Assembly (NCBI GenBank): GCA_021811385.1
Contig: JAJZPC010000006.1
Location: forward strand, 1-56,667
Direction of reading: 5' to 3'
Length of the DNA stretch: 56,667 bases
Source of the DNA: Deltaproteobacteria bacterium
GTDB taxonomy: Bacteria; Desulfobacterota; Desulfobulbia; Desulfobulbales; Desulfurivibrionaceae
Below the pieces are notes generated by a model. The model did not search any database. It was not told the origin of the DNA and was given only the letters and a program-made list of their open reading frames with translations. The translations under genes were made by a program, and so were the position numbers. Below, one piece after another: positions 13,931 to 34,449 of this stretch (positions are counted from its first letter, which is position 1; every line of letters begins with the position of its first letter).

Positions 13931-14386
13931 TCACATATCCAGTCGTTCCAAGGCGGTGACCGCACCCTCGTTGAATTCGACCCTGGCCACGGTATATTCC
14001 TCACGGGTGTCGCGGTTGACCCAGACGTTTTCGTACTGCACGCTGCTCCTGCCTGATTTGTCCCGCACCTGCACCGGGATGGTCATCCGATCCGTCTGGG
14101 TGAGTATCCGGGTTTTGGAGTATGTCCAGACCGTTGCTTCCCCCTTGTCCGTGGTTCGGGTGTAAATCCTGTCCGGCATACCCCAGGCAAGTCTGACCAT
14201 TTCCTCGGAAAAGCCGAGTTCTATCTGGCCGGCCCGGATTTTTTGCTGGATCTCCGGGCTGAAGGAATTGAAGATGTCTTGGCTTGAGGCAATGCGGCGG
14301 TCCCGGATCTGCTGGGCGGTCATGCAGGCGGAAAGAGCACAGGCGACCGCCAGAATGAGGAGCAACAGCCTTGTTTTTTTCATCAT
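13931..14386 (-). CDS. Putative lipoprotein of unknown function
   Basis: This 151-residue protein has a lipoprotein signal peptide ending in the lipobox LSAC (Cys about residue 21), so it should be membrane-anchored outside the cytoplasm. The rest includes KIRAGQIELGFSEEMVRLAWGMPDRIY, the pattern of SmpA/OmlA-like small lipoproteins in which a processing sequence leads into a G-x-P turn, then short beta strands. It is the last gene of the minus-strand run beginning at 19338, 26 bases after the membrane protein gene. Function is unknown. Confidence 0.7.
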   Translation of the reverse strand: MMKKTRLLLLILAVACALSACMTAQQIRDRRIASSQDIFNSFSPEIQQKIRAGQIELGFSEEMVRLAWGMPDRIYTRTTDKGEATVWTYSKTRILTQTDRMTIPVQVRDKSGRSSVQYENVWVNRDTREEYTVARVEFNEGAVTALERLDM

Positions 14387-14412
14387 GACACTCCCCCCGT
14401 TGTTTTCAGGCC

Positions 14413-15420
14413 CTACCCTTCCCCGCCACTGATCAGGTACTTGAGATAGTGATAGAACGACAACCCTGAAAAAATCACCAGCAAGACCAGCGAAAGCCGC
14501 ACCGCCAGCCGCTGATACCGATCAACCACCCCACCAAGTCCTCCCCTGCCCCGCACCAGACCGGCGAGTGGCACGCTGGCCCCGAAGAAAGCCGCGGGGA
14601 TCAAGGCGCCATACAGACCGAAGCCGAAATAATGATACTCCGGCTTGAGAATGCAGAACGGGCATTTATGGTAGGGCATGGCGTAGACATAGGATGAGAT
14701 CACCGTGGTGATCACCACCAGGGAAAGGACGAAAAACCAGAGCCAGCCCGCAGCATAGAGCCCGGCCAGCCAAGCGTGCCAGCGCTGCAACAATCTCCCC
14801 CCCACTATCATAAGTACGGCAATGGAAGCAATAAAGGCGATGAGCAAGCCCTGTTGCGAATAGCCGGTTATGAGATTGGTGCCTCCACCGGTGCTCTCGC
14901 CGAACACCACGGCGCAGCAGGAGGTGATGATGTCCGGTTTGATCCCGGCGATGTACAGGGTTTGCAGGGAGGCATCCAGCACCAGCATCGGCAGGAGCAG
15001 GAGCAGGGCCAGATATTTGATCCGCACCAGGGGGTAATGCTCCGAACGGATGTCCAGCTGGTGGAGAAGAATCCAGAAGCCGTAGAAGAAGACGCCGAAC
15101 AGCTTGACCAGCAGCGCGGGCATGCCGTAAGGATTTGCCAGCAGGGCGCCGGTGGCGCACATGGCCCCGACGATAACCTGGCAGAACTCATCGGCTGCCA
15201 GCACGAAGAGGATCAGGGTGATGATCTGAAAGCCCAGGCCGTAGGCAACCAGGGTGGAAGAAAGCCAGATCTCGTTTTCCAGCCGGATCTGCCGGTTGCT
15301 GTCGCTGCCCGGCTCCCAGAAACGCAAAACCCGCACCGCGGTTTTTGCGGCCACCGCGCCGAGCACCAGCACCACCAGGCTGCAGAGGCTTAAGGCCAGG
15401 CTCCAGGGGTTAAGGAACAT
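14413..15420 (-). CDS. Polytopic membrane protein with CPFC motif, in the NosL/ABC locus
   Basis: This 335-residue protein has about eight predicted transmembrane helices. A CPFC motif (MPYHKCPFCILKPEYHYFG, about residue 245) lies between two helices, with His and Tyr residues close by, suggesting a thiol or metal site. I do not recognise a named family. Its start overlaps the ATPase gene stop by 11 bases, so it is translated with the ABC transporter. The neighbouring NosL and TlpA-like genes point to metal delivery or thiol-redox work outside the cytoplasm; that role is inferred from context only. Confidence 0.7.
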   Translation of the reverse strand: MFLNPWSLALSLCSLVVLVLGAVAAKTAVRVLRFWEPGSDSNRQIRLENEIWLSSTLVAYGLGFQIITLILFVLAADEFCQVIVGAMCATGALLANPYGMPALLVKLFGVFFYGFWILLHQLDIRSEHYPLVRIKYLALLLLLPMLVLDASLQTLYIAGIKPDIITSCCAVVFGESTGGGTNLITGYSQQGLLIAFIASIAVLMIVGGRLLQRWHAWLAGLYAAGWLWFFVLSLVVITTVISSYVYAMPYHKCPFCILKPEYHYFGFGLYGALIPAAFFGASVPLAGLVRGRGGLGGVVDRYQRLAVRLSLVLLVIFSGLSFYHYLKYLISGGEG

Positions 15421-16087
15421 GGATTCTGCCGTCCTTGATGGTCACGGTCCGGTCAATGGCCGGATGCTCGAAGACCAGCGGGTCGTGGGAGGCGATAACA
15501 ATGGTCTTGCCCGCCTCCTTGAGCTGGAGCATGATCGCCATGAATTCCCGGCTTAAGCCCGTGTCGAGATGGGCCGTGGGCTCGTCGGCCAGGATGATGG
15601 GCTGGTTGTTGATCAGCGCCCTGGCAATGGCTACCCGTTGCAGCTCGCCGCCGGAGATCTGCCCGGCCGGGAACTGGGCCCGATGGGTGATGCCGAAGCG
15701 CTTCAGCAGCTCTTGCGCCCTTTGCCTGCGCTCCTTGGGCGGCACGCCCAGCGGCAGCAGAGGCAGGGTGATGTTCTCCAGCACCGTGAGTTCGGGCAGG
15801 ATATTGAAACGCTGGAAGATAAAGCCGATGGTCTCCCGCCGGTGCAGGGTGAGGAACCGGTCCGGCAGCCGGGCCAGCTGCCGCTCGGCAATGGCGGCCC
15901 GGCCGCTGGTGGGCGGGAAGATGCAGCCGATGATGGCCAGCAGGGTGGACTTGCCCGAGCCGCTCGGCCCCTTGAGGCAGACCATGCACCCCTGCTCCAC
16001 CGTAAGGTCGATGTCGCTCAGGGCCCGTACCTCGTTGGCCCTGCCCTGGTTGTAAATCTTGCTCACCCCGGAAAGTTCGATCAACAT
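15410..16087 (-). CDS. LolD/MacB-type ABC transporter ATPase
   Basis: This 225-residue ATPase has Walker A GPSGSGKS (about residue 39), signature ISGGELQRV, Walker B IILADEPTAHLD and the H-loop IASHDP. It belongs to the group that works with FtsX/MacB-type permeases, which extrude or extract substrates from the membrane rather than import them. The partner permease is the next gene upstream in the operon (16092-17288), four bases away. Confidence 0.9.
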   Translation of the reverse strand: MLIELSGVSKIYNQGRANEVRALSDIDLTVEQGCMVCLKGPSGSGKSTLLAIIGCIFPPTSGRAAIAERQLARLPDRFLTLHRRETIGFIFQRFNILPELTVLENITLPLLPLGVPPKERRQRAQELLKRFGITHRAQFPAGQISGGELQRVAIARALINNQPIILADEPTAHLDTGLSREFMAIMLQLKEAGKTIVIASHDPLVFEHPAIDRTVTIKDGRIHVP

Positions 16088-16091
16088 CGCC

Positions 16092-17288
16092 TCAGCCTCC
16101 CAGCGCCGAATCGGCGGGAACCGTGGCGCTGCGCCAGGCCGGAATCACCGTGGCCGCCAGATAGGGAATCACGGTAAAGGCGAAAATCAGCAGGATATCC
16201 CCCACCGCCATTCTCGGCAGCAGATGCAGGTCGGGCCTCAGCACGGACCAGCCCATGAGCACCGGCCGGAACAGGGCGGCGGCACAGTAGACCACATGGA
16301 TGTAGGCTGCGGTCATGCCCACCAGACAGGCCAATCCGGAAACGATCACCGACTCCCAGAAACGGACCGCCAGGATGTCGCTGGTTTCCCAGCCCAGCAC
16401 CTTGAGGATGGCTATTTCCCGCCGCTCCTCAGGGGAAAGGCCGGACGCCTTGTCCCAGGCCAGGATGACAAAGGCCGCCAGGGCGGAAAGCAGACAGATG
16501 GAGCCGAAGCCGCTGCGCCAGCCGAAAACGACCTGATATGTTTTTTGGATCTGCGGCCGGGTCAGCACCCGCACCGAAGGCAATGTTTCGGAGATCTTTT
16601 TGGCAATGGTGTCGATCTCCTTGGGGTTGGCCACGTAAACGCAGAGGTCGGTGACCAGCCCGGCGGGAATAGAAAAGAGATCGCGGGCGTCGGCCAGGTT
16701 CATGACGATGAGGTCGTTGGTCAGGATATCGGTATCCCGCGAGAACTCCCCGCTGACCTCAAAGGGCTTCAGGGAAAGATCGGGCCGGAACAGGGAGAAG
16801 GTGGTGCGCCCGGCAAGATCCAGGGCCTTGGTGATGGAATGGCCGACAACCACCCTGCCCTGCTCATCGGGCCCCGGCATTGCGCCTTTGGCCAGGGCGG
16901 CATCGAGGCGATTGCCCTCGGGCATCTCATCCACGGCCATGCCCATGACCGTGGAGTTGGCCAAGCGGACCTCGTCGAAATAATAGCCCCAGATCCGGGG
17001 CACCACCCTCCGGATGCCGAAGATTCCAGCCAGCTTGTCCCGGTAGGCCAGAGGGATGGCTTCCTGCCGGCCGGCCGACATCTTTTGCAGGGTAATCTCC
17101 GGGGTATGGGTCAGCACCTGTTTGGCCTTGTCGGAAAGGGCCTGGGTCACCATCTGGAAGGAAGCGAGCAGGAAGATCACCGCTGCAAAGACCAGCAGCA
17201 CGCTGAGGCTTTTCAGCCGGTGCCGCCACAGGGACGAGAGGGCATAATCGAGGATATTGAGCTGTTTTTCGAGGTTGGATTGGGCCAT
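16092..17288 (-). CDS. FtsX/MacB-type ABC permease
   Basis: This 398-residue protein has one N-terminal helix (about 27-48), a large extracytoplasmic domain (about 50-260) and three C-terminal helices. The cytoplasmic EERREIAILKVLGW segment is the typical FtsX coupling loop. It forms a transporter with the adjacent ATPase. No periplasmic adaptor is encoded nearby. Position after nosL recalls the NosF-NosY ABC pair used in copper-site assembly, but NosY has a different fold, so the analogy is only functional. Confidence 0.88.
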   Translation of the reverse strand: MAQSNLEKQLNILDYALSSLWRHRLKSLSVLLVFAAVIFLLASFQMVTQALSDKAKQVLTHTPEITLQKMSAGRQEAIPLAYRDKLAGIFGIRRVVPRIWGYYFDEVRLANSTVMGMAVDEMPEGNRLDAALAKGAMPGPDEQGRVVVGHSITKALDLAGRTTFSLFRPDLSLKPFEVSGEFSRDTDILTNDLIVMNLADARDLFSIPAGLVTDLCVYVANPKEIDTIAKKISETLPSVRVLTRPQIQKTYQVVFGWRSGFGSICLLSALAAFVILAWDKASGLSPEERREIAILKVLGWETSDILAVRFWESVIVSGLACLVGMTAAYIHVVYCAAALFRPVLMGWSVLRPDLHLLPRMAVGDILLIFAFTVIPYLAATVIPAWRSATVPADSALGG

Positions 17289-17293
17289 GGCGG

Positions 17294-17575
17294 TCAGCGG
17301 GAAGGCGGCCGCCAGAAGGCGCCGGTGGGAAAATGTTCGATGGCTCCGGGATGATCCATGAAGGGGGCCATTGCGTCGCTCACTGCCGGATGCCGGGTGT
17401 AGCGGGCCTCGGTGGCCACGGCCAGATCAGTGAGCCCGAGAGAGCGGGTGGCCACCTCCAACTGGGCAAGGGTGGCATCTTGAACCCTGCGCCTGTTTTG
17501 GCCATCCATGAGCAGCGCCCCATCAAGGGCCAGGAGCAGGCAGAAAAACAGACTGAAAACAAAAGCGGGTCGCAT
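17294..17575 (-). CDS. Small protein with N-terminal membrane anchor, between nosL and the permease
   Basis: This 93-residue protein has an N-terminal hydrophobic segment (MRPAFVFSLFFCLLLALDGA) followed by a soluble, mostly helical tail with DATLAQLEVATRSLGLTDLAVATEARYTRHP. The ATG at 17575 lies four bases after the nosL stop, so it is probably translationally coupled; the longer frame upstream would run through nosL. No family recognised. The spacing (4 bases upstream, 5 downstream) indicates a true operon member. Confidence 0.65.
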   Translation of the reverse strand: MRPAFVFSLFFCLLLALDGALLMDGQNRRRVQDATLAQLEVATRSLGLTDLAVATEARYTRHPAVSDAMAPFMDHPGAIEHFPTGAFWRPPSR

Positions 17576-17579
17576 CGGC

Positions 17580-18095
17580 TCAGCGCATCTTCTGGCCATG
17601 GCGCATGGACTGCACCAATGGCTCGGTGATTTCCACAAAGCGCAACACCTTGGTTCCCTTGTGATCCTTGCGGAAATTTTCCGCCGCTCCGGCGGAACCA
17701 AAGGGGATGAACTCGTGGCCCATGGGTCCGTACATGTCGCTGCCGATAACATACCAGGCCGCACGGCCATCGAGCCAGGCGAGGGTGTAGTAGTCTTTCA
17801 CCCAGATTTCCTTTGTGCTCTGTCCGGCCGCGCCGAAGGAGGCAGGGTTGAAGTGAAAGGCCAGCATGTCCTTTACCCCGTCGAAAAACTTCACGCTGCC
17901 GTTGGACAGCCGGATCTGGGCGGTCCAGTCCGGATACTTGGCCACAAACATCCCGCAGACCGGACAGCGCTCCTGGGGATTGATCTCCTTGGCAGGCTCG
18001 GCCAGAAGCGGAGTCGCCATCAAGAAAAAGGAGACGACACAGGCAACCAGGACATACCGGCGAACAAAACATTTCTTGAGAAATACGTTTGTCAT
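17580..18095 (-). CDS. nosL: NosL-family metal (copper) chaperone
   Basis: This 171-residue protein has a signal peptide (hydrophobic stretch about residues 14-32) and the NosL hallmark RCPVCGMFV near residue 43, followed by FFDGVKDMLAFHF and GHEFIPFG. NosL proteins bind Cu(I) through the CxxCGM and Met/His residues and deliver it to periplasmic enzymes such as nitrous oxide reductase. Unlike classical NosL it has no obvious lipobox cysteine at the cleavage site. No nosZ is present in the window; the closest exported candidate client is the beta-propeller cytochrome at 19613. Confidence 0.88.
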   Translation of the reverse strand: MTNVFLKKCFVRRYVLVACVVSFFLMATPLLAEPAKEINPQERCPVCGMFVAKYPDWTAQIRLSNGSVKFFDGVKDMLAFHFNPASFGAAGQSTKEIWVKDYYTLAWLDGRAAWYVIGSDMYGPMGHEFIPFGSAGAAENFRKDHKGTKVLRFVEITEPLVQSMRHGQKMR

Positions 18096-18106
18096 TTTCT
18101 GGCAAC

Positions 18107-18634
18107 CTATTGCTTTTCTGTATTTTTACTGAAATATCCGCCCAGCAGATTTTTGAGCTCCTGCTCGCTGACCCCACCAAGGATGGCGGCGAGAATCCGG
18201 TGATCCGGGCTGATGATGATGGTTTGCGGTTCCACCTTGATATTGTAGCGGCTTGAGATTGCCCCGTCCTTGTCGATCAGCACCGGAAAACCGATCTCCA
18301 GGTCAGCCACGAACCGGCGCACCGTGGCCTCGTCGGAATGTTGGTTGACATAGACCACCCGCAGCCCGGCTTCCCTGTATTTTTCAAAGTACTGGTTGAA
18401 GATCGGGGTATCGGCCCGGCAAAACTTGCAATCCGTGGACCAGAAACGGAGAATGACCGGTTGTCCTTGGTAGGAGGCAAGAGAGACCGGCTGCCCGTTG
18501 AGATCGGTTCCGGCAAAATCAGGGGCCGGGTCGCCGATTTTGAGCTTCCTTGCGGATGAATCGCCACCGGAACAGGCAGCCAGGGCCAGGAGTATGGAGC
18601 AAAGCAGAAATGCCGGGAGTATTTTCTTTAACAT
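18107..18634 (-). CDS. TlpA/ResA-like thioredoxin-fold lipoprotein
   Basis: This 175-residue protein has a lipoprotein signal with lipobox LAAC (Cys about residue 21) and an AhpC-TSA/TlpA fold. The fold is seen in IGDPAPDFAGTDLNGQPVSL, the redox motif STDCKFCRADTP (CKFC, about residue 72-75) and the cis-Pro strand VEPQTIIISP. Such proteins reduce disulfides or prepare thiols for haem or copper insertion outside the cytoplasm. It lies 11 bases before nosL in the same operon. Confidence 0.88.
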   Translation of the reverse strand: MLKKILPAFLLCSILLALAACSGGDSSARKLKIGDPAPDFAGTDLNGQPVSLASYQGQPVILRFWSTDCKFCRADTPIFNQYFEKYREAGLRVVYVNQHSDEATVRRFVADLEIGFPVLIDKDGAISSRYNIKVEPQTIIISPDHRILAAILGGVSEQELKNLLGGYFSKNTEKQ

Positions 18635-18660
18635 TAAAGTCGATCCGAAAATTCAAAAAA

Positions 18661-19338
18661 TCAGGCCCCCTGTGCGGAGAGAACGCCCTGCCGCATGGAA
18701 AAGACCCTGGCGCCCTTTTGGGTGGCGGCAAGATCGCTGTTGTGGGTCACCACCACAAAGGTTGTTCCCTGCTCATTATACCTTCTGAACAGCGCAAGGA
18801 TATCCTTTTCTGTTTCCTCGTCCAGATCCCCGGTGGGTTCGTCGGCCAAAATGATATCCGGACAGTTGATAAAGGAGCGGGCAATGGCGACCCGCCGCTG
18901 CTGGCCGCCGGAAAGCTGGGAGGGAAAGGCGTTGGCCTTGTCCGCCAAACCGATCTGGGCGAGAATGTCCAGGGCAAGTTCCCGGCTGCCCGAGGGGTTC
19001 CGGCCGAAGCTCAAGGGCAGCAGGATGTTCTCCATGACCGAGAGGGTGGGAATCAGGCTGGCGAACTGAAAGATAAAGCCGATCTTGCTGTTGCGCATGG
19101 TGGAAAGGGCCTGGTCGGACTGCTGCCAGTTTTCCACGCCATCAATATATACCTGCCCCCTGTCCGGGGAGGTCAAACCGCCGATCAGGCTTAGAAGCGT
19201 GGTTTTTCCCGAACCGGAATGCCCCAGAATAACAAGGAAATCTCCTTTGTTCACGGAAAGATTCACCGCGTTGACGGCATGTACCATGGTGGTTTCCACC
19301 GGGTAGCTCTTGATAAGATCCTTGCATTCGATAATCAC
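18661..19338 (-). CDS. LolD/MacB-type ABC transporter ATPase (second set)
   Basis: This 225-residue ATPase has Walker A GHSGSGKT, signature LSGGQQRRV, Walker B IILADEPTGDLD and the H-loop VVTHNS. The GTG at 19338 is chosen as start because GGGG lies 6 bases upstream and the fold begins MIIECKDLIKSY; longer TTG starts are possible. The likely permease partner is the MacB-like protein at 20903-22096 on the other strand, because the downstream permease at 16092 already has its own ATPase. It is the first gene of the minus-strand run that includes tlpA and nosL. Confidence 0.87.
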   Translation of the reverse strand: MIIECKDLIKSYPVETTMVHAVNAVNLSVNKGDFLVILGHSGSGKTTLLSLIGGLTSPDRGQVYIDGVENWQQSDQALSTMRNSKIGFIFQFASLIPTLSVMENILLPLSFGRNPSGSRELALDILAQIGLADKANAFPSQLSGGQQRRVAIARSFINCPDIILADEPTGDLDEETEKDILALFRRYNEQGTTFVVVTHNSDLAATQKGARVFSMRQGVLSAQGA

Positions 19339-19612
19339 GTTTTTCCCCAAGGCAGAATTCAGTATCCGTTCCAACTAGCGGCAAACAGGCAATAAAAATC
19401 CTTTTGCACAATCTCCTGCAAAATTATTTGCCTCACTCTAAAAATGAGGTTGCCAATATACCACCGAGTGGTAATATCGTAAACAGCCATGTGGCATTTT
19501 GTCGCATGGCATTTTGTCGCACCACGGAAATCTGCCTTGAACACGCTCGGTGAGCTGGCCGCGCTGTTTGAGGTCATTATAAGTGAACAGACAGTTAAAC
19601 GAGGAGAACACA
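19339..19612. promoter_or_regulatory. Divergent control region of the propeller cytochrome and the ABC/NosL operon
   Basis: The 274-base gap holds an inverted repeat TACCAC-CGA-GTGGTA (19459-19473) and a perfect 15-base tandem duplication TGGCATTTTGTCGCA at 19492-19506 and 19507-19521. The duplication is long enough for two adjacent protein sites. A possible -10 box TATAAG is at 19578-19583, but no convincing -35 accompanies it, suggesting activator-dependent initiation. Functions are inferred. Confidence 0.45.
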
Positions 19613-20803
19613 ATGCAATTCATCAAAGCTTCATGGCGTAACTCTCTTATCACCGGCACCGTCGTCGCCCTTGGCCTCGTCGGCGCCTCCGCGGCCATGG
19701 CTGCGGACAACTATGCCGGCACCGCTTACATCGCCGGCATGGGCGGCCACTTCGCCAAGGCCGTGTTCAAAATCGACCCCAAGGCCGAGACCCCCATCTC
19801 CCTGACCGAAGAGCTGGACAAAATCGACATCGGCGACGGCAAGACCCACCCTTTCCATGATTCCCGCATCGACAACAAGGATCGCAACACCATCTACTGG
19901 TCCACCTACAAGCCGGACCATGCGGCCAACAACTCCTACCATTACGGCAAGACCGATCTCAAGACCGGCAAGGTCGTAGTGGACAAGACCTTCCCGGTAC
20001 CGGCCAAGGTTATGAGCACCAAGGCCGGCTACTGCGCCTCCGCCCAGACCAAAGACTACTTCATGCCCATCTCCATGAACAAGCCGGGCTACATCAGCAT
20101 CATCGACAAGAAGACCATGGAGATGAAGCACAACATCTTTCTGGAAGGCACCGAGGCCGACATCAAGGGCGGCGTCAAATACACCCACGGCATCAACTCT
20201 CCGGACATGAAGGAGATTTTGATCACCCTCAACGAAGCCAACGTTACTCCGGACAACAAGGAGCTGGGCGACGGCATCGGCAAGTTGCACCTGTTTGTTG
20301 TTGACGCCAAGGCGCTTGAGCAGGGCAAGGTCAAGGTGCTGCGCAAGGGTGTGGCGGACGGCAACGCCAAGTCCACCATCAGCTTCCGTCAGTACTACTC
20401 TCCGGACGGCAAGTACATCGCCAACGCCACCGGCGACATCCTTTTCCTGATCGACGCCAAGACTCTGAAGACCGTAGCATCCGTGACCATGGATAAGCTG
20501 GAAGAGACCCACGACGCCATCTTCACCCCGGACAGCAAGTACGTGATGATCACCACCCGGACCAAGACCATTCTTCCCGGCTGCGTTGATCCTGCCAAGC
20601 CTGCCGACGGCGAGTGGCGCATGGACGGCCAGGTTCGTCTCTTCGACGTGGCTGCCAAGAAACTGGTCGGCAAACCGACCTCCACCTGCCTGAAGTGCCA
20701 TGACGAGCAGATCGGCACCGGCGATGACGCTCCGCACGCCATCCTCTGCGGCCTTGACGTGAACTGGGCTGCAAAGGGCGCAAAGGTAGCAAAGAAGAAA
20801 TAA
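19613..20803 (+). CDS. Periplasmic beta-propeller c-type cytochrome, highly codon-biased
   Basis: This 396-residue protein starts at ATG 19613 behind GAGGAG and has a clear signal peptide cleaved near AMA30. The body has repeated YVTN-like blade strands (YISIIDKKTMEM, YIANATGDILFLIDAKTLKTV, VRLFDVAAKKLV). Histidines recur at blade-like positions (THPFHDSR, YTHGINSPD, ETHDAIFTPD), as in propellers with a metal-lined channel. One haem-binding CLKCH lies at residues 359-363. Codon choice is strongly skewed to C-ending codons, unlike its neighbours, implying very high expression; a strong terminator follows. The specific reaction is unknown. Adjacent nosL suggests copper, which is inference. Confidence 0.8.
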   Translation: MQFIKASWRNSLITGTVVALGLVGASAAMAADNYAGTAYIAGMGGHFAKAVFKIDPKAETPISLTEELDKIDIGDGKTHPFHDSRIDNKDRNTIYWSTYKPDHAANNSYHYGKTDLKTGKVVVDKTFPVPAKVMSTKAGYCASAQTKDYFMPISMNKPGYISIIDKKTMEMKHNIFLEGTEADIKGGVKYTHGINSPDMKEILITLNEANVTPDNKELGDGIGKLHLFVVDAKALEQGKVKVLRKGVADGNAKSTISFRQYYSPDGKYIANATGDILFLIDAKTLKTVASVTMDKLEETHDAIFTPDSKYVMITTRTKTILPGCVDPAKPADGEWRMDGQVRLFDVAAKKLVGKPTSTCLKCHDEQIGTGDDAPHAILCGLDVNWAAKGAKVAKKK

Positions 20804-20835
20804 GTTCCCTTTGCCAGTTTTTTTTGTTTCACTCG

Positions 20836-20870
20836 AAAACCGGGGGGCTGAAGCCCTCCGGTTTTCTTAT
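20836..20870 (+). terminator. Intrinsic terminator of the propeller cytochrome gene
   Basis: AAAACCGGGGGG pairs with CCCTCCGGTTTT through one G-U pair across a short loop at 20836-20865, followed by CTTATTT. It lies between the cytochrome stop and the downstream permease, so the permease would be expressed at a lower level. Confidence 0.75.
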
Positions 20871-20902
20871 TTGATGAATCCCTCGAATAGACGTAAGGCC
20901 CT

Positions 20903-22096
20903 ATGACACCCAGCAACGCACACTCCATCATCGCCATTGCCTGGAAAGGCGTGACCCGGAAAATGTTCCGCAACCTCATCCTCATGCTGGCGGTTGGCCT
21001 GCTCGTCGCCCTGCTGACCTTTGCCATGCTCTTCAACAAGGCGGTGGAAGAGGATATCGAGGCGGCAAGCAAGCGGCTTGGCGCGGACATTGTCATAGTG
21101 CCTTCCGAGGCCAAGGGCAGCGCCGAGGAATTCATCCTGGAAAGCAAGATCAAAAGCTTTTACATGGACAAGTTCGTCTTCGACGACATCAGCGGGTTGC
21201 CCGATATCAAGCAGGCGACCTACCATATCTACCTCAACACCCTTACCTCGGGGTGTTGCAGCATCGACGAGGGACAGGTCATTGTTTTCGATCAGGACAA
21301 GGATTTCGTGGTGGCCCCCTGGCTGGAGACCGGCCCCAAGCGTTTGGAGCCGGGGCAGGTGTATGTGGGGAGTTATGTGTACGATTTTCTCGGCCTGATC
21401 AACACGGCCAGTCTTTTTGGGCAGGGGGTCAAGGTGGTCGGCCACCTCCAGCAGACCGGCACTGGACTTGACCATGGGGTATTCATGCGATTGGACGACC
21501 TGAGCAAGATCTCCCCCGAGGCAACGGGGGGGTATCAGGCCGGAAAAATATCCATCATCTTCATCAAGGTGAAAGACGGGGTTTCCGTGGCCAAGGTGGT
21601 CGCGGATATCCGCAACATCAACCCCACGGTCGGAGTGATGACCAGGGGCGACATCGGCGCCGACGCCAGAAATACCCTGGGGGACATCCTCCGGGTGTTC
21701 TCCATCACCATCCTCATCTCCTCGCTGCTCGCCCTGCTGCTTGCCTGGTCAACCTTCACCGTGCTGGCCAACGAACGGCGGCGGGAGGTCGGCATCCTTC
21801 GGGCCATCGGCGCCCACCAGAGCCACATCATGAAGATCTTCCTGGCCGAGGCCATGCTGATCAGCACCATGGGCGGCGTTGCCGGGGTGGTCATGGGCCA
21901 TTCCCTGATCCATTATCTGGCCAAGGACTTCACCCTGCTCCGCACCCTTGGCGCCGTCTCGGCCATCACCGCAGGCAATATCGCCATCGGGGTTATCGGT
22001 ATGGGAGTCGGCATCGCCATCTGCCTTATCGGCGCCGCCATCCCCATTCTCCGCTTGGCCCGGCTGGAACCGCTGCTGGCGATCAAGGAAGCATAA
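20903..22096 (+). CDS. MacB/FtsX-type ABC permease (second set)
   Basis: This 397-residue protein has an N-terminal helix (about 26-45), a periplasmic domain (about 46-265) and three C-terminal helices. The coupling segment ERRREVGILRAIGAHQSHIMKI is diagnostic of the MacB/FtsX class. A conspicuous TSGCCSID double cysteine (about residue 115) sits in the periplasmic domain. It has no ATPase on its own strand, and the lone ATPase at 18661-19338 is the likely partner. The two flank the propeller cytochrome divergently. Confidence 0.87.
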   Translation: MTPSNAHSIIAIAWKGVTRKMFRNLILMLAVGLLVALLTFAMLFNKAVEEDIEAASKRLGADIVIVPSEAKGSAEEFILESKIKSFYMDKFVFDDISGLPDIKQATYHIYLNTLTSGCCSIDEGQVIVFDQDKDFVVAPWLETGPKRLEPGQVYVGSYVYDFLGLINTASLFGQGVKVVGHLQQTGTGLDHGVFMRLDDLSKISPEATGGYQAGKISIIFIKVKDGVSVAKVVADIRNINPTVGVMTRGDIGADARNTLGDILRVFSITILISSLLALLLAWSTFTVLANERRREVGILRAIGAHQSHIMKIFLAEAMLISTMGGVAGVVMGHSLIHYLAKDFTLLRTLGAVSAITAGNIAIGVIGMGVGIAICLIGAAIPILRLARLEPLLAIKEA

Positions 22097-22098
22097 TC

Positions 22099-22130
22099 AG
22101 CTGATAGCTGTCAGCTTACAGCTATCAGCT
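22099..22130. terminator. Bidirectional hairpin between convergent genes
   Basis: AGCTGATAGCTGT (22099-22111) and ACAGCTATCAGCT (22118-22130) form a perfect 13-bp stem with a 6-base loop, filling the 32-base gap between the convergent permease and cbiH. There is no T-tract on either side, but the position fits a shared transcription stop. Confidence 0.6.
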
Positions 22131-22899
22131 ATAACGCATACTTTGCCGCGTACCCCCGGGGTGTGACCATGAATCCCTGCCAGGCAAAGGTCACGGAATT
22201 ACCGACAATGATGGTGGTTTGCATGTCGATCTCGTTCTCCAGCATCTTCCCCAGGGTGGTGAGCACAATCCGTTCATTCTCACGGGTGGCGGCGGTGACG
22301 ATGCCCACCGGGGTTTCAGGGGCGCGGTGCGCCAGCAGAATCTCGCGGGCCTTGACGATATGCTCGGCCCGCTTCTTCGATTTCGGGTTGTAGATCACCA
22401 CCACAAAATCCGCCGATGCCGCGGCCTCAAGCCGTTTCTCGATCTTTTCCCAGGGAGTCAGCAGGTCGGAAAGGCTGATCGCGGCGAAATCATGCATGAG
22501 CGGCGCGCCCAAACGGGCGGCGCAGGCATTGAGCGCGGCGATGCCTGCGATCACCTCGATATCGACGCACACGTTCTGTTCCCTTGCCATCTCGAAAACC
22601 AGCCCGGCCATGGCATAGATGCCCGGATCGCCTCCGGAAACCAGGGCCACGATGCGGCCTTGCGCCGCCAGGTCCAGCGCCTTACGGCACCGGTCAACCT
22701 CCTTCATCATCTGGGAGGCCAACACCTCCTTGCCCGCAAGAAACTCGGGGATCAGATCAAGATAGGTCTGGTAGCCCACGATCACTTCGGCTGCGGTAAG
22801 GGCTTCCCCCGCAGCAGGGGTCATATGTCTTGCCGAGCCCGGTCCTGTTCCGACAACGTACAGTTTGCCCTGGCCACCGCCATGGTTACATTGTGCCAT
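22129..22899 (-). CDS. cbiH: Cobalt-precorrin-3B C17-methyltransferase
   Basis: This 256-residue SAM-dependent methyltransferase has GKLYVVGTGPGSARHMTP at the N-terminus, the VSGGDPGIYAMAGLV loop near residue 87 and VIYNPKSKKRAEH, typical of CbiH/CobJ. It methylates C17 and contracts the corrin ring. The ATG at 22899 lies inside cbiG, giving a 79-base overlap; no start codon closer to the fold is available. It is the last gene of the cobalamin operon. Confidence 0.92.
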   Translation of the reverse strand: MAQCNHGGGQGKLYVVGTGPGSARHMTPAAGEALTAAEVIVGYQTYLDLIPEFLAGKEVLASQMMKEVDRCRKALDLAAQGRIVALVSGGDPGIYAMAGLVFEMAREQNVCVDIEVIAGIAALNACAARLGAPLMHDFAAISLSDLLTPWEKIEKRLEAAASADFVVVIYNPKSKKRAEHIVKAREILLAHRAPETPVGIVTAATRENERIVLTTLGKMLENEIDMQTTIIVGNSVTFAWQGFMVTPRGYAAKYAL

Positions 22900-23825
22900 T
22901 TTCTTTTCCCAACCAGTAAATCGTTACTCTGTGCGCTGAGCAGGGCAGCGGGTTCGGCCACGCCGATCGCGCCCACATTACGCAGCGCCGCCTCGGATAC
23001 CGCAACATCTTCCACCCTGTTCAACTCTTCCTTGCTGAAAAATTCCAGCCGCAAGCCTTGCTCATGTGCAAAGGCCAGCAGCCCGACTTCATCCTGCTTG
23101 AGGTCAATGGAGGCCAGATTGCGGATGCTCATTTGCGACAGGTTCTGTTCCACAAACAACTCTTCACAGGCCTGCCGGAGTTCCGCAACCGAAACCCCTC
23201 GGTTGCACCCCACCCCGACCACCAGATTTTTGGGGCGAAACACAACGGCATTGCCGTAGTCGCCAAGACGCGGGGTCACCACAATGTCGGCCTGCTCCAC
23301 CTCGGCAACCTCCGCCAGCCCTTGGGGCAACGAGGCAATAGCCAGTTCGGAAAAAATCCTAAGGCAGCCGGTGTTGACCAGCCTGGCGCTGGCTGTTGTC
23401 AACCCTTCCTTGCTTTCGCAGGCCAGATCCTGTCCCCTGGCCCAAAGATCAAGAGGGGCAAGCCCCAAGGTGTCGGAGGCGGTGGTGATCACCGCTTCGC
23501 CGCCAAGCAGATTCGCCACCCGCCGGGCCAAATCGTTGCCGCCGCCCAGATGGCCGGAGAGCAGGCTGACAACATGACGCCCTTTTTCATCCACCACCAC
23601 CACGCAGGGGTCGCTCTCCTTGCCTTGCAGAAGCGGGGCAATTGCCCGCACCACAATGCCGGTGGCCATGACACAGACAAAGCCGTCCACCTCCCGCCAG
23701 TGTTCAGCCAAGGCCCGGGCCACCCCGTCTGTTTGCGGCAGCAGCAAGGCTTCCGGCATTTTTGGGGCCAGATCGGCGGCCAGCTCCTTGCCGCCGTTGG
23801 TTATGGCGAGGATCCCGATCTTCAT
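22821..23825 (-). CDS. cbiG: Cobalt-precorrin-5A hydrolase
   Basis: This 334-residue protein carries the CbiG N-terminal part (MATGIVVRAIAPLLQGKESD, VVSLLSGHLGGGNDLA) and the C-terminal CobE-like domain (VGVGCNRGVSVAELRQAC, VGLLAFAHEQG). CbiG opens the lactone and releases acetaldehyde in the anaerobic route, so its presence defines the oxygen-independent pathway. About 15 residues extend past the usual family end and overlap cbiH in another frame. Confidence 0.93.
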   Translation of the reverse strand: MKIGILAITNGGKELAADLAPKMPEALLLPQTDGVARALAEHWREVDGFVCVMATGIVVRAIAPLLQGKESDPCVVVVDEKGRHVVSLLSGHLGGGNDLARRVANLLGGEAVITTASDTLGLAPLDLWARGQDLACESKEGLTTASARLVNTGCLRIFSELAIASLPQGLAEVAEVEQADIVVTPRLGDYGNAVVFRPKNLVVGVGCNRGVSVAELRQACEELFVEQNLSQMSIRNLASIDLKQDEVGLLAFAHEQGLRLEFFSKEELNRVEDVAVSEAALRNVGAIGVAEPAALLSAQSNDLLVGKRKWHNVTMAVARANCTLSEQDRARQDI

Positions 23826-23828
23826 GGC

Positions 23829-24662
23829 TTACTGCGCCGCATCCCGAAAGCCGTGGCCGAAATGCTGGTCATACAGTTTGGACAGCGCCGGAGGCGGCGA
23901 GCTGGCCAGCACCTCTCCCACCGCGATGATCGCGGTTTTGGTGATCCCCGCCTCCTTGACCTGTCCAGCAATGGTCCCAAGGGTGCCGCGGATGATCCGC
24001 TCTTCCGGCCAGCTCACCTTCTCGACCACGGCCACCGGGGTGTCCTGCGGGTAGCCGCCGCTGCGCAACTCGGCAACAACCTGCTCGATCATGCCGATAC
24101 TGAGCAGGATCAGCATGGTGGCCCGATGGCTTGCCAGGGATGAAAGATTTTCTTTTTCCGGCACCGGGGTTCGCCCTGCTCTCCGAGTGATGATCACGGT
24201 TTGCGACACCTCGGGCAGGGTCAGCTCGGTGGTCAGGGCTGCGGCTGTGGCCATGGCCGAACTCACCCCGGGAACCACATGGAAGGGAATCCCGGCGGCC
24301 GCCAGGCGGGCAATCTGCTCGTTGATGGCCCCGTAGATCGAAGGGTCGCCGGTATGGAGCCGGACTACCTTTTTCCCCTGCTGCCAGGCATTGATCACCA
24401 GCGCCATGACCTCGTCGAGATTCAGGCCGGCGGAATTATGCACTTCGGCACTCACTCCCGCAAGCAAGGATTCTGGCACCAGACTGCCGGTGTAGACGAT
24501 GCAATCAGCCTCCCGCAGCAGACGCTGGCCCTTGACCGTGATCAGCTCCGGGTCGCCGGGGCCTGCGCCCACGAAAAAGACGGGAAAACGTCTTGTTTGA
24601 CTCCCCCTGCCTCGATGGGAGGGGGCAGGGGGGAGGGTGAAGTTGCAACCTGCCGAGGTCAT
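23829..24662 (-). CDS. cbiF: Cobalt-precorrin-4 C11-methyltransferase, start supplied by a repeat element
   Basis: The 277-residue frame contains a normal CbiF/CobM from VFFVGAGPGDPELITVKG onward, with HTGDPSIYGAINEQ and VVPGVSSAMATAAAL. About 26 residues precede the conserved start, encoded by the palindromic element at 24599-24716 (TLPPAPSHRGRG). No ATG, GTG or TTG suitable for initiation lies between the element and the fold. Initiation therefore probably uses the element's own ATG at 24662, preceded by GGGGGAACC. The original start seems to have been lost on insertion. Confidence 0.9.
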   Translation of the reverse strand: MTSAGCNFTLPPAPSHRGRGSQTRRFPVFFVGAGPGDPELITVKGQRLLREADCIVYTGSLVPESLLAGVSAEVHNSAGLNLDEVMALVINAWQQGKKVVRLHTGDPSIYGAINEQIARLAAAGIPFHVVPGVSSAMATAAALTTELTLPEVSQTVIITRRAGRTPVPEKENLSSLASHRATMLILLSIGMIEQVVAELRSGGYPQDTPVAVVEKVSWPEERIIRGTLGTIAGQVKEAGITKTAIIAVGEVLASSPPPALSKLYDQHFGHGFRDAAQ

Positions 24663-24716
24663 AGGTGGTTCCCCCTCTCCCTAACCCTCCCCCGCCAGGG
24701 GGGAGGGGACTTTTTG
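24599..24716. repeat. GC-rich palindromic element, copy 1 (overlaps cbiF start)
   Basis: CTCCCCCTGCCTCGATGGGA... forms one stem-loop and CCCTCCCCCGCCAGGGGGGA... a second, with about 30 bases between them. Both halves match the elements at 27604, 29767 and, inverted, 31147. It fills the space between cbiL and cbiF and runs into the cbiF reading frame. Confidence 0.85.
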
Positions 24717-24741
24717 GCTTTTTGCAATAGGTTCATTGAAA

Positions 24742-25476
24742 TCATGATTTTCTCACAATGATGGTGGAGAAATAATGGGGCTCGTCATTGTTCCCTGTAA
24801 GCGCGGTGGTCAGATCGCGCCTGATCCTCTGGCCGGACTGGCTGGATCGCTCCACCAGCACGGCCTTGTCCAGCAGATTCATCTCCGTCAGCAGCGGCAC
24901 CAGCCGATCCATCACTCGGTGCACCTTCATGAGAACCACCGAGTCGAATTGCTCCAAGGTTTCCCGCAAGCGGCCATTCTCAAAGGTGGCAGGGATGACC
25001 ACCAGCCGGTCATCCCCCAGGCAGAGGGGCTGGCCGGCGGCCGCGGCGGAAGCGCCGATGGCGGATACTCCGGGGATGATCTCCACCGGCAGATCCGGGG
25101 CCAGGTCAAAAAGGGTTTCGCAGACATAGAACCCGGTGCTGTAGATGGCAGGGTCGCCAAGGGTGGGAAAGGCAACATCCCTGCCGGCTTGCAAATGGCC
25201 CACGATCTGGGCCGCTGCCGCATTCCAGGCCTTTTTCACCTCCGGGTCCGGGCTTTGACCCATGCGGATCTTTTTCATGGGAAAATGGTGGGTGATGATC
25301 TCCTTGCCGGACCGGTTCACCACCCCTTCCACGATTCCCAGGGCCGTGCTCTCCCCGTCTTTTTTCGCTGCGGGCGCAAGCCACACCCCGCATCGCTCCA
25401 AGATCCTGACTGCCTTGAGGGTCATGAGTTCCGGATCGCCCGGCCCTACGCCTACAACGTATAATGTTCCCTTCAT
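24742..25476 (-). CDS. cbiL: Cobalt-precorrin-2 C20-methyltransferase
   Basis: This 244-residue protein shows the CbiL/CobI pattern: MKGTLYVVGVGPGDPELMTL at the N-terminus, FPTLGDPAIYSTGFYVCE near residue 100 and IIPGVSAIGASAAAAGQPL. It adds the C20 methyl group to cobalt-precorrin-2. The start overlaps the cbiET stop (ATGA), so translation is coupled. Confidence 0.93.
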   Translation of the reverse strand: MKGTLYVVGVGPGDPELMTLKAVRILERCGVWLAPAAKKDGESTALGIVEGVVNRSGKEIITHHFPMKKIRMGQSPDPEVKKAWNAAAAQIVGHLQAGRDVAFPTLGDPAIYSTGFYVCETLFDLAPDLPVEIIPGVSAIGASAAAAGQPLCLGDDRLVVIPATFENGRLRETLEQFDSVVLMKVHRVMDRLVPLLTEMNLLDKAVLVERSSQSGQRIRRDLTTALTGNNDEPHYFSTIIVRKS

Positions 25477-26711
25477 TTGCTTCCTGTCATTACGGTTATG
25501 GGATTCAAAATCGTTCCCGGTTCTTGCGCTGGAAAAGTCGTTCGTTCAATTTGTATCCGGGTCATTGCAACCTTCAACCCATGCTCGGCCATGCGTTGCG
25601 GCGCCTCGGCCACGGTTTGTTCGATCACCCCGTTCACCACCATTCTGCCTCCGACCGGGAGACGATGGGCGGCTTGGCCGATCATTTCCGCCAATCTGCC
25701 GCCGCTGCCGCCGATGAAAACCCGATCCGGGTCCGGCAAGTTGCTTAACACCGTTGGGGCCTCGCCCTGGACGGGGATGATGTTGTAGCAGCCGAATCGA
25801 CGGATATTGCGTTGCACATTGGCAAAGGCCTCGGCCGTGTGGTCAACGGCGAAAACAGTCAAGCCCGGATGCATCCGGGCTGCGGCCACGGAGATGGAGC
25901 CGCTGCCCGCGCCGAGATCCCAGAGCACCCCGGTGCTCGGTAGCCGCAAGGCGTGCAGGGTCACGGCCCGCACCTCGTCCTTGGTGATCAGGCCTCGGCT
26001 GTGGGCAATCTCCTCTTCGCCAAGCCCGAACACCGGGAGATTCTCTTCCGCAAGGCCTGGCCTGGTGATGATCAGCACATTCAGCTCGGCAAAATCCTGG
26101 TTCGCCGCCTCGGCAAGGGTTCCGGAAAAAAGACGCTCTTCCGCGCTCCCGAGATTTTCGGCAACATGCACCCGGCAGTGGCTCAGCAGGTCGTCGGCTT
26201 CGATCAGCTCCAGATAATCAATGAGCTGCCGGGCCAAGCGGGCAGGCGTGTTGCGCCGGTCGGTGAAGGCAAAGGTCTTTTCCCGTGCCAGAAGCAGGCC
26301 GGGCACATGCAGGGTTTTCCTGCCATGGAGGCTGAGCAGGGCCATATCATCCCAAGGCAGATGAAACCGGGCACACGCCTCCTGCATGGTGGAAAGCGCC
26401 GGGAGGATCATCAATTGTTCGCTGCCGAACTCCTTGAGCAGCCTGCGGCCGATCCCGAAAAACAGGGGGTCGCCACTGGCCAACACCCCCACATCCCCGT
26501 TGGCCAGTGTCTGCCGGATACCGGCCAAGGCAGGGGCCAGGGGAGAGATGGGGCATTTCGCCCCTGGCATTCCCTGCACCAGCGGAAGATGACGGGAGTC
26601 CCCGACGATGAGATCGCACCGGGCCAACATCCCGGTCTGTTGCGCGGTGAGCCCCCGGCTGCCGACGCCTATGAGAAAAAGTCTAAGCCGTTTCGACAAT
26701 TGACTCGTCAT
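25473..26711 (-). CDS. cbiET: Cobalt-precorrin-7 methyltransferase/decarboxylase fusion
   Basis: This 412-residue fusion has an N-terminal CbiE domain (about 1-205; LIGVGSRGLTAQQ, VLASGDPLFFGIGRRLL) and a C-terminal CbiT domain (about 210-412) with the class I SAM motif LWDLGAGSGSISVAAARMHP. Together they methylate C5 and C15 and decarboxylate the C12 side chain. This is the same architecture as CobL. It starts 72 bases after the cbiD stop; that gap contains an AGCCGT/ACGGCT hairpin. Confidence 0.93.
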   Translation of the reverse strand: MTSQLSKRLRLFLIGVGSRGLTAQQTGMLARCDLIVGDSRHLPLVQGMPGAKCPISPLAPALAGIRQTLANGDVGVLASGDPLFFGIGRRLLKEFGSEQLMILPALSTMQEACARFHLPWDDMALLSLHGRKTLHVPGLLLAREKTFAFTDRRNTPARLARQLIDYLELIEADDLLSHCRVHVAENLGSAEERLFSGTLAEAANQDFAELNVLIITRPGLAEENLPVFGLGEEEIAHSRGLITKDEVRAVTLHALRLPSTGVLWDLGAGSGSISVAAARMHPGLTVFAVDHTAEAFANVQRNIRRFGCYNIIPVQGEAPTVLSNLPDPDRVFIGGSGGRLAEMIGQAAHRLPVGGRMVVNGVIEQTVAEAPQRMAEHGLKVAMTRIQIERTTFPAQEPGTILNPITVMTGSK

Positions 26712-26783
26712 CTGGGTTGACCCAACGGCATAAGGAGCCGTAAAGAAACGGCTAATCCCCTACAGGCACTGTCGCAACGGCTC

Positions 26784-27992
26784 CTAAACATGCAGCTCCA
26801 CCAGGGTGTGATTGTTCACCAGATAGACCCGCACCTCCAGGCCGGAAACCTTTTCGGCATATCGCTTGGCTGCTTCGCAGACCTTTCGGATCAGGTCGTT
26901 TCTCCCCTGTTCCTGCAGCCGGACATGGATCTCCCTGGCGGTATTGACCCCCTGGAGACTCGCCAGCAAGACAGGGTCCGCCCCCAGACGGGCGAGAAGC
27001 GCCAACCCATCGGCCACGTCCAGGGCGCCATGCCGGACATGGGTCTGGGGGATACCCAAGGCCGCCTTCATGATCTTGGCCCACATCCCGGCCAGATGGA
27101 TCGTGGTAAAACCCCGCCGGGCCGCGGCCAGCAGGGAAAATTCCAGGTAATCGCCCATCATGGCATATGCCTCTTCCGGCAGGGAGAGCAGGGTTTGCAC
27201 CCCCTTTTCCGAGGTGCGGCCGGTGGACAGCACCACTTCGGCAAGTCCTGCCTCCTTGGCCACGGACAGAGAAGCCTCGATCGTGGCGGTCCAGGCTTCG
27301 GCGGACACCGGGCGGACAATGCCGGTGGTACCGAGGATGGAAAGGCCGCCCACTATGCCCAACCGGTAGTTCAGGGTTTTCTCCGCCAGCTCCTCGCCCC
27401 TGGGCACGGAAATTACTATCTCCAAGGGGTTACCCACCTCTTTGCCCAAACCCTCCAGAATCGCGGCCAGAATCATCCGGCGCGGCACCGGGTTGATCGC
27501 CGGTTCCCCGGGCTTGACCGCAAGTCCGGGCTTGGTTACCCGGCCAACCCCTTCCCCGCCGCAGAGAAAGATATTTGTCTGTTCAAGACGAATACCGTTC
27601 AACGCCCCCTCCCTCGACGGGAGGGGGCTGGGGGGTGGGTGAAACAGCAACCTGCCTGGTTCATCGCTGTTCCCCCCTCTCCCTGACCCTCCCCCTCCGG
27701 GGGGGAGGGAACTTCTACAGGCGGCTCCTTCCGGCAGAAAACGAACACTGGCCACAATCTCCGCGCCGTTGGTCACATCCGGATCATCCCCGGCATCCTT
27801 GATTACCGAGGCCCAGGCCTGGCCGGACTTTACTTCGCATCGATGCACAACAAAGCCATGGCGGCTGCCATCGGGAAAGGGGATCTCCACCCGCTCCGGC
27901 CTGGATCGGCCCAGAAGCAACAACACCGCTGCCTTGGCCGCCGCGGCAGCACAGGCGCCGGTGGTATATCCGCTTCGCAGTCTGCGGGCCAT
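26784..27992 (-). CDS. cbiD: Cobalt-precorrin-5B C1-methyltransferase with repeat-encoded insertion
   Basis: This 402-residue CbiD starts LRSGYTTGACAAAAAKAAV and contains DPDVTNGAEIVASV, GGEGVGRVTKPGLAV, EPAINPVPRRMI and FTTIHLAGMWAKIMKAA. Between FLPEG and IFLCGGEGVG it carries some 45 extra residues, ending in HPPPSPLPSREGALN, which are not part of the family. They correspond to the palindromic element at 27604-27714, inserted in frame. The insert lies at a surface-like loop before the substrate-binding region, so the enzyme may still work. Without the insert the length fits the family. Confidence 0.92.
   Translation of the reverse strand: MARRLRSGYTTGACAAAAAKAAVLLLLGRSRPERVEIPFPDGSRHGFVVHRCEVKSGQAWASVIKDAGDDPDVTNGAEIVASVRFLPEGAACRSSLPPGGGGSGRGGNSDEPGRLLFHPPPSPLPSREGALNGIRLEQTNIFLCGGEGVGRVTKPGLAVKPGEPAINPVPRRMILAAILEGLGKEVGNPLEIVISVPRGEELAEKTLNYRLGIVGGLSILGTTGIVRPVSAEAWTATIEASLSVAKEAGLAEVVLSTGRTSEKGVQTLLSLPEEAYAMMGDYLEFSLLAAARRGFTTIHLAGMWAKIMKAALGIPQTHVRHGALDVADGLALLARLGADPVLLASLQGVNTAREIHVRLQEQGRNDLIRKVCEAAKRYAEKVSGLEVRVYLVNNHTLVELHV
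27604..27714. repeat. GC-rich palindromic element, copy 2 (in frame inside cbiD)
   Basis: The element reads GCCCCCTCCCTCGACGGGAG... to ...GGGGGGGAGGGAACTT on the plus strand. It is about 111 bases, two stem-loops with a short spacer. It leaves the cbiD frame open and encodes SLPPGGGGSGRGGNSDEPG and HPPPSPLPSREG on the minus strand. Confidence 0.88.
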
Positions 27993-27999
27993 GGGTTCC

Positions 28000-28638
28000 C
28001 TATACCTCTTTAGCCAGGCGGATCAGGGCGTTGACAATGGCCACGGCCACCGGGGTGCCGCCCTTTCTCCCCCGGCAGGTGATAAAGGGATATCCTTTCT
28101 CGCTCAGCAGCTCCTTGGACTCGGCCGCATTGACAAAACCAACGGGCGCGCCAATGAGCAGGCCCGGACAAAGATCCGGGGCCAGATTATCCCAGCAGTC
28201 CATGACCTTGAGCAGGGCGGTGGGCGCGTTGCCCACCGAAACGATTCCGATATTTTCCGTCAAGCCCTTCTCAATGGCCACCTCGGAACGGGTCAGACCG
28301 CGCTCCTTGGCAAGCCGGGCCACCTCGGGCTCCGCCACCTTGCAGACCACCGTGCCTCCCCAGTGCGCAAGCAGCCCCTTGCTCACCCCGGCCGCGCCCA
28401 TGTTGACATCGGTCAGGATGTTGCGGCCCGCCCGGATCGCCGCAATCCCGGCGTCAATGGCCTTGGGGTGAAAAACCAGGCTCTCGGCAAAGGAGAAATC
28501 CCCTGTGGCGTGGATCACCCGCTGGACCACCTTGAAGGTTCTGGGATCAAAATCAGTGGGGCCAAGCTCCTGGGCAATGATTCGGAAGCTTTCCGCCTCG
28601 ATTGCTTCCGGGGCTATCTGCATGATGGTGTTTTTCAT
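28000..28638 (-). CDS. cbiC: Cobalt-precorrin-8X methylmutase
   Basis: This 212-residue CbiC/CobH protein has VQRVIHATGDFSFAESLVF near residue 38 with the catalytic His, then TDVNMGAAGVSKGLL and GAPVGFVNAAESKELL. It moves the C11 methyl to C12, forming cobyrinate. The gene lies five bases after cbiA and seven before cbiD. Confidence 0.94.
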   Translation of the reverse strand: MKNTIMQIAPEAIEAESFRIIAQELGPTDFDPRTFKVVQRVIHATGDFSFAESLVFHPKAIDAGIAAIRAGRNILTDVNMGAAGVSKGLLAHWGGTVVCKVAEPEVARLAKERGLTRSEVAIEKGLTENIGIVSVGNAPTALLKVMDCWDNLAPDLCPGLLIGAPVGFVNAAESKELLSEKGYPFITCRGRKGGTPVAVAIVNALIRLAKEV

Positions 28639-34077: not shown

Positions 34078-34198
34078 CTTCTTCTCCATCTTTTAAAAGG
34101 TTGATAAGTTCCCTTCAAAAAAAGACGGTACCCCCCTGCGAATTCTGCGTAACGCGCAAGGCCGGAAACCTTTCCTCGAAGGTTGCAGCAAAAAAAAT

Positions 34199-34375
34199 CA
34201 ACGAGGCAGGTCTCCTGACTTTTCCCAAAACCGGTTCGCCTTCCCACCCCACAACAGGGGGCAGTGGCTTGAGAACCGGCGTTCCTGCTTCGCATTGGAA
34301 GCAGGAGGAAATTACAGTGGCGGGACCGTTCCCGATTTGCACGGGATTCCCTTTTAAGCCCAATGGGCGCCTTAT
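34199..34375 (-). ncRNA. Cobalamin riboswitch upstream of cbiK
   Basis: On the minus strand the leader contains GGGAATCCCGTGCAAATCGG, then the core CCGCCACTGTAA and finally AGTCAGGAGACCTGCCT, the three conserved blocks of the AdoCbl-type aptamer in correct order. It lies about 110 bases before the cbiK start. That gap has an AACCTT/AAGGTT hairpin and a T-run but no clean terminator, so the output mechanism is uncertain. Confidence 0.93.
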
Positions 34376-34449
34376 TGACAACACACATGTGGTTTCTACA
34401 AAAACCGGCGATTCACCTCGCACAAGACCGAAAAACATCCGGATTCAAT

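Follow-up and report, generated by a model that had tools for sequence, protein, structure and literature searches.

Copper enzymes built on a propeller fold are rare, with nitrous oxide reductase as the textbook case, and they control greenhouse-gas and sulfur chemistry. What is served by a gene cluster that encodes a NosL-type copper chaperone, a thiol-disulfide oxidoreductase, and two ATP-binding cassette (ABC) transporters around an exported propeller cytochrome, with no recognizable nosZ? Such a cluster lies in the window analyzed here, a stretch of 56,667 nucleotides (contig JAJZPC010000006.1) from a Deltaproteobacteria bacterium of the Desulfurivibrionaceae, whose genome assembly comprises 2.6 Mb in 108 contigs and is 75% complete. 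We propose that the locus may make and metallate a periplasmic haem-copper propeller enzyme, a reading for and against which we see about equal weight. If it is true, a second copper-propeller lineage with its own loading machine would account for a sizeable piece of sediment and groundwater metabolism.

The genes named in the initial annotation, i.e., NosL, a TlpA-like thioredoxin, two ABC systems, the propeller cytochrome, and the membrane protein CPFC, were all recovered by Pfam and NCBIfam searches and among the open reading frames. They form two operons diverging around positions 19375-19612: the propeller cytochrome gene followed by perm2 on the plus strand, and a minus-strand run of seven genes encoding ABC2, TlpA, NosL, a 93-amino-acid (aa) protein, perm1, ABC1, and CPFC. 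The features on which the argument turns are the following.

19613-20803, plus strand: type A propeller monohaem cytochrome, 396 aa, with Sec signal, six predicted blades, and C-terminal CLKCH (AlphaFold, AF2, model; conservation in 66 relatives)
20903-22096, plus strand: perm2, FtsX/MacB-type permease accompanying the propeller (PF02687, PF12704)
18661-19374, minus strand: ABC2, putative ATPase partner of perm2 (PF00005; layout, the gene standing directly after perm2 in codirectional loci)
18107-18634, minus strand: TlpA/ResA-like periplasmic thiol-disulfide oxidoreductase with a CKFC motif and a Cys at the lipobox position (PF00578)
17580-18095, minus strand: NosL-family copper chaperone, CPVCGM motif kept (PF05573, 113.9 bits versus a cut-off of 24)

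The start codon of ABC2 is possibly further downstream than called, and ResA was the top NCBIfam model for the TlpA-like protein, which scored under the ResA cut-off.

An exported propeller cytochrome with invariant His and Cys residues

The description of the propeller as an exported, His-rich haem protein was borne out by its Sec-type signal, a single CxxCH, many His residues, and blades modeled with high confidence. A scan of genome contigs yielded 106 relatives, from which 80 loci were kept and 66 sequences aligned. Invariant in all 66 are H46, H82, H110, C141, H192, R259, H300, C359xxC362H363, and C379. The signal-like N terminus of the window protein and the invariance of C359-H363 agree with a c-type cytochrome, and from the CxxCH we predict that it carries one c-type haem. 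Besides this motif, seven His and Cys residues (His46, His82, His110, His192, His300, Cys141, and Cys379) are invariant.

In the AF2 model (pLDDT 89.2, pTM 0.86), 25 strands fit six blades, the ring being shut by pairing of the last strand with the first ones, and the CxxCH helix is placed in the loop preceding the last blade. According to the modeled secondary structure, one invariant residue lies near the start of the inner strand of each blade (H82, C141, H192, R259, H300, and C379). When residues were assigned to the two halves of the propeller by strand topology, 9 of the 10 invariant His and Cys residues fell on one half, which is weakly significant (p = 0.03). The model thus read, the invariant His and Cys residues would converge on one site.

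No Pfam or NCBIfam family matched the propeller above its cut-off, the nearest matches being weak and generic, and a sequence search of the PDB returned only weak matches to hydrazine synthase beta and WD40/THOC3. Foldseek comparison with the PDB retrieved generic propellers, with 0.47 as the best TM-score by query length among the matches listed. Literature searches directed at this family or at the genes that accompany it found no publication on it. Type A occurs in Desulfobulbales and Nitrospirota, bacteria of sediment and groundwater. In one bacterial family it is almost universal, all 12 near-complete genomes having it, and roughly 13% of a Nitrospirota sample carry it at full length; tblastn detected no match of the window propeller on plasmids. 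A 1.7-Mb genome holds a propeller gene interrupted by in-frame stops (G218:C2:34973-35944, L014) and gave no match to NosL or CPFC, a combination that fits joint loss.

A permease and an ATPase travel with the propeller

The 80 loci comprise 24 codirectional and 48 divergent layouts and 8 without an ATPase in reach. Codirectional loci invariably show the propeller, then an FtsX-type permease, then an ATPase (24/24); in divergent loci, the permease adjoins the propeller in 45 of 48, and the ATPase lies on the other side. This arrangement, which we call module (i), recurs in Desulfobulbales and Nitrospirota. With permease and ATPase in every codirectional locus and NosL within 2.9 kb of the propeller in 38 of 42 divergent loci, the gene arrangement is far above chance. 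TlpA lies within the same distance in 40 of the 42.

Two known transporters of this type were considered and rejected. A MacB tripartite efflux pump does not match the separate ATPase and permease genes, the lack of an adaptor or TolC among the conserved neighbors, and a MacB model score far under the cut-off. For the lipoprotein exporter LolCDE, scores were 213 bits versus a cut-off of 308 for LolD and 55 versus 362 for LolCE. In two Nitrospirota, a DUF4418 membrane protein is encoded directly after the ATPase of the propeller (L075, 13033-13422; L083, 9300-9686), and in Desulfogranum mediterraneum an NrfD-type membrane protein gene stands upstream of the propeller module (L036, 7564-8778).

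Copper chaperones accompany the propeller

NosL identity is supported by the PF05573 score and by the invariance of CxxCGM among relatives, in whose alignment C44, C47, M49, and M125 do not vary. Co-occurrence of propeller and NosL had been set beforehand as a test of the initial annotation, and it held: NosL was found in 45 of 50 propeller genomes versus 52 of 297 genomes of a phylum sample, two samples that differ in taxonomy, with no Nitrospirota baseline included. Three of the five propeller genomes without a NosL match have PCuAC, which leaves D. mediterraneum and a 1.4-Mb metagenome-assembled genome (MAG) with neither. PCuAC matched in 11 of the 50 genomes, once in each, and in nine of these the match adjoins the propeller. 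At the level of loci, a PCuAC gene stands immediately beside the propeller or its ATPase in ten, nearly all from Nitrospirota/Nitrospiria. PCuAC has been described as the copper donor for CuA and NosL as that for CuZ, with TlpA reducing the copper-binding cysteines before copper insertion (PMC7558416). Given PCuAC beside the propeller, copper is likely its metal.

At least 16 NosL-bearing propeller genomes gave no match to COX1 (haem-copper oxidase) or nosZ, which indicates that the usual clients of NosL are absent there, other cuproenzymes not being excluded. Many Desulfobulbales propeller genomes, a good number of them incomplete MAGs, likewise lacked matches to both, among them the source genome of the window at its 75% completeness. 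The absence of nosZ claimed for the locus agrees with the search results: TIGR04246 (NosZ) gave nothing over cut-off in the 50 propeller genomes, the source genome included, nor in any control genome, and PF18764 matched neither these genomes nor a positive control.

A separable module with a proposed role in copper supply

The minus-strand operon continues beyond NosL with four further genes.

17294-17575, minus strand: 93-aa one-helix protein with an invariant TEARYTRH...D...D...HFP.G motif (alignment)
16092-17288, minus strand: perm1, FtsX/LolC-like permease of module (ii) (PF12704, PF02687)
15410-16087, minus strand: ABC1, ATPase of module (ii) (PF00005)
14413-15420, minus strand: CPFC, polytopic membrane protein with conserved GAMCATG, IITSCC, and H-x-CPF motifs (alignment)

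Pfam and PDB searches gave no match for the 93-aa protein. CPFC belongs to no known family, and its AF2 model (pLDDT 85) matched no fold in the PDB. We refer to NosL, the 93-aa protein, perm1, ABC1, and CPFC as module (ii). It flanks the propeller in 34 of 39 divergent loci with enough sequence. CPFC relatives, however, were detected in 42 of the 297 phylum genomes, most of them without a propeller, and in Desulfurivibrio modules (i) and (ii) lie apart; module (ii) is therefore an independent unit that was joined to the propeller in this lineage. In the 20 CPFC regions that were read, it is present and mostly complete, with NosL beside CPFC. In loci L173-L192, module (ii) has no propeller with it, and some of these loci contain a second NosL-like gene.

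The suggestion that these genes form a maturation set for a metal enzyme is thus upheld in one part and revised in another. The NosL and PCuAC context largely supports a metal enzyme. Dedication of the whole set to the propeller does not stand, with module (ii) residing mostly in propeller-less genomes and NosL unmatched in 5 of 50 propeller genomes. The set splits in two: a private permease and ATPase, and an adjacent general copper-supply unit. If this is right, module (ii) would represent a general periplasmic copper-supply route, carried by about one-seventh of the genomes in the phylum sample.

Taken as raw occurrences, the neighbors of module (ii) include an SCO1 protein in L192 and multicopper oxidases, which Pfam identified in L180 and L189 and a motif in L175 and L178. 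Genes for Cus-like efflux were recognized by motif or Pfam in L175, L176, L178, L189, and L191. A scan for the multicopper-oxidase motif picked out L175, L178, and L180 in the vicinity of module (ii); of the propeller loci, it picked out L047 alone. Beside module (ii) in L192 (8439-16836), a run of genes encodes a 1,142-aa protein that had no Pfam match but resembles a multicopper protein of very large size, together with two Sco-like proteins, a propeller of 677 aa, and a fusion of a cytochrome with a binding protein.

Proposed function and alternative explanations

In the mechanism that we envisage, the propeller would be exported by Sec and then given one c-type haem, while TlpA would keep the putative metal-binding residues Cys141 and Cys379 reduced. 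Cu(I) would be handed over by NosL in this locus and by PCuAC in many Nitrospirota, and module (ii) might be a general periplasmic copper supply recruited beside the propeller. By analogy with NosFY, which acts with NosD for nitrous oxide reductase, perm2-ABC2 might use ATP to load the propeller mechanically or to check its quality. The haem of the mature protein would exchange electrons with a copper site built of His and Cys residues from successive blades. We infer copper binding, the geometry of the site, the role of each helper, and the status of the propeller as an enzyme from the features described above; as to the substrate, a small nitrogen or sulfur compound is a guess from the hosts.

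Several observations weigh against this proposal. The one-face test, at p = 0.03 with all residues, reaches only 0.09 when the haem motif counts once. D. mediterraneum lacks both NosL and PCuAC although it has the propeller, the permease, and the ATPase. Since module (ii) is mostly found where there is no propeller, part of the co-occurrence may reflect common ancestry. A contig end explains some of the 8 loci without an ATPase in reach, yet L066, L072, and L074 have long flanks and show neither permease nor ATPase beside the propeller, and the link between propeller and transporter is thus not absolute.

The propeller might instead be a cytochrome that transfers electrons or acts as a sensor and binds no metal besides its haem iron. 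Its His and Cys residues would then ligate the haem, form a disulfide, or dock a partner, and the copper genes would serve other cuproproteins. The purely generic fold matches, the wide occurrence of module (ii) without a propeller, and the presence of a haem-copper oxidase in D. mediterraneum, which lacks both chaperones, are in line with this explanation. It has more difficulty with the seven invariant His and Cys residues besides CxxCH, more than one haem needs, with the adjacency of PCuAC in Nitrospirota under a different gene order, and with the many hosts in which neither COX1 nor nosZ was matched for NosL to serve. We consider it rather unlikely. Improbable, in our judgment, is a locus for transition-metal uptake or trafficking, in which the propeller would be a metal-binding or reductase part and the FtsX-ABC transporters would power metal movement or a thiol relay, as proposed for Campylobacter FetMP-FetABCDEF. 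Like the type A locus, that system provides a periplasmic metalloprotein with a pair of ABC permeases, an ATPase, and thioredoxins (PMC10783030), but it is an iron uptake system with FetM and FetP (P19) and no propeller cytochrome. No FTR1 or P19 homolog was recognized in the conserved neighborhood, where no search aimed at them was made, and the propeller has a predicted c-haem and its own permease and ATPase pair. On the other side, an FtrD-like PF10080 gene adjoins NosL in L073, with a similar gene in L092, and some genomes have genes for Cus-like efflux in the vicinity of module (ii). The FtrD-like genes (L073, 3921-4382, by Pfam; L092, 8247-8714, at the same place) stand beside the propeller module and each have a second ABC/FtsX pair beyond them.

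A role of the propeller itself as a novel reductase of nitrous oxide (or nitric oxide), replacing NosZ, would accord with NosL, with a propeller bearing invariant His, and with the lack of nosZ matches over cut-off in 50 propeller genomes. We nevertheless regard it as very improbable: type A lacks a cupredoxin/CuA domain, its conserved residues are not seven His but include Cys and Arg, and NosD and NosR were not recognized in the conserved neighborhood. The likeness to NosZ/NosDFYL of clades I and II lies in an exported propeller with conserved His, NosL, and a dedicated ABC transporter. Type A, by contrast, has a predicted c-haem, six blades in the model, and Cys and Arg in its conserved set, and an FtsX-type ABC transporter takes the place of NosDFY. 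No cupredoxin family was found in the 66 type A members, whose C terminus consists of CxxCH and the last strand, and canonical NosZ identity was rejected on this ground and for want of a NosZ model match over cut-off, the models having matched no positive control. He et al. reportedly described a clade III (lactonase-type) NosZ in 2025. As cited in PMC13122619 and described for Nitrospirota in PMC11033732, clade III shares with type A a noncanonical propeller, Nitrospirota hosts, and a NosL context. The Nitrospirota NosZ-like proteins, however, have a cupredoxin domain and nosDFLYX genes (PMC11033732), whereas type A has neither and carries the haem motif; lacking the cupredoxin domain, type A was not assigned to clade III.

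The maturation of CuA by TlpA, Sco, and PCuAC likewise places a TlpA-type reductant and a PCuAC donor beside a Cys-containing candidate copper protein, but the candidate client here is a propeller, not COX2, and many hosts have no haem-copper oxidase match. Cytochrome cd1/NirN and hydrazine synthase beta are haem-associated propellers with weak sequence and fold similarity to type A, at an identity of only 12-17%. Cytochrome cd1 is an eight-bladed protein that contains haem d1 and has its cytochrome c part in a separate domain. Identity with cytochrome cd1/NirN was rejected after PF02239 gave only weak matches, in 3 of 66 members (best E value, 0.023). The same applies to SBP56/methanethiol oxidase: PF05694 was not among the type A matches and reached 30.5 bits versus a cut-off of 34 for a distant paralogue, type B.

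The type B paralogue

Type B shares 22-25% identity with the window protein. It is present in three relatives of the same family (L110, 3804-4859; L111, 4478-5644; L112, 3352-4374) and recurs in many Nitrospirota (further loci, L139-L156). Most type B propellers are accompanied by a permease and ATPase pair, so that module (i) recurs around them, and often also by NosL, PCuAC, or TlpA. Near-invariant among 23 aligned type B-like sequences are GGH56, C136, C180, H224, H275-D276, CxxCH, and C342. Types A and B have in common the GGH His, C141, H300, CxxCH, and C379, and at the other blade positions His, Cys, and Arg replace one another, with C180/H224 equated to H192/R259 by motif spacing, not by automatic alignment. 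Such a pattern would be expected of a cofactor site whose ligands differ between lineages. Judged from the alignments, the invariant His and Cys residues exceed the predicted needs of the fold in both types. Tentatively, and with less than even confidence, we suggest that types A and B may constitute a large superfamily of six-bladed periplasmic propellers in which a single chain holds a mixed His/Cys copper cluster directly beside a covalent c-haem. Such proteins would be loaded by their own FtsX-ABC transporter and would serve Desulfobulbales and Nitrospirota in respiration or detoxification through a reaction not yet described.

A palindrome between the divergent operons

19456-19475, no strand: palindromic candidate operator TATACCAC-CGA-GTGGTAATA, overlapping promoter-like sites; general form ATACCAC-N3-GTGGTAT

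The intergenic copy reads ATACCAC-CGA-GTGGTA at 19458 and is the sole strict copy in the window. Of 25 strict copies in the type A loci (1.29 Mb), 24 lie between -500 and +100 relative to the propeller start, and the looser form occurs in 40 of 83 upstream regions versus about 3 expected, counts that are inflated by close relatives and a few duplicated loci for a motif spotted in the window first. The type B loci (209 kb) contain a single strict copy, and the 389 kb surrounding module (ii) contain none. We take the palindrome as a strong lead to a candidate regulatory site.

Neighboring genes

The initial annotation let the cluster begin at 13931. The genes at 14413-22096 belong to it, whereas the gene at 13931-14386, for a 151-aa lipoprotein, was rejected as a member of the conserved unit, adjoining the cluster only in close relatives. 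On the other side, genes resembling those of cobalamin biosynthesis occupy about 22129-28638, and two cobalamin riboswitches lie on the minus strand at 35516-35699 and 34188-34389.

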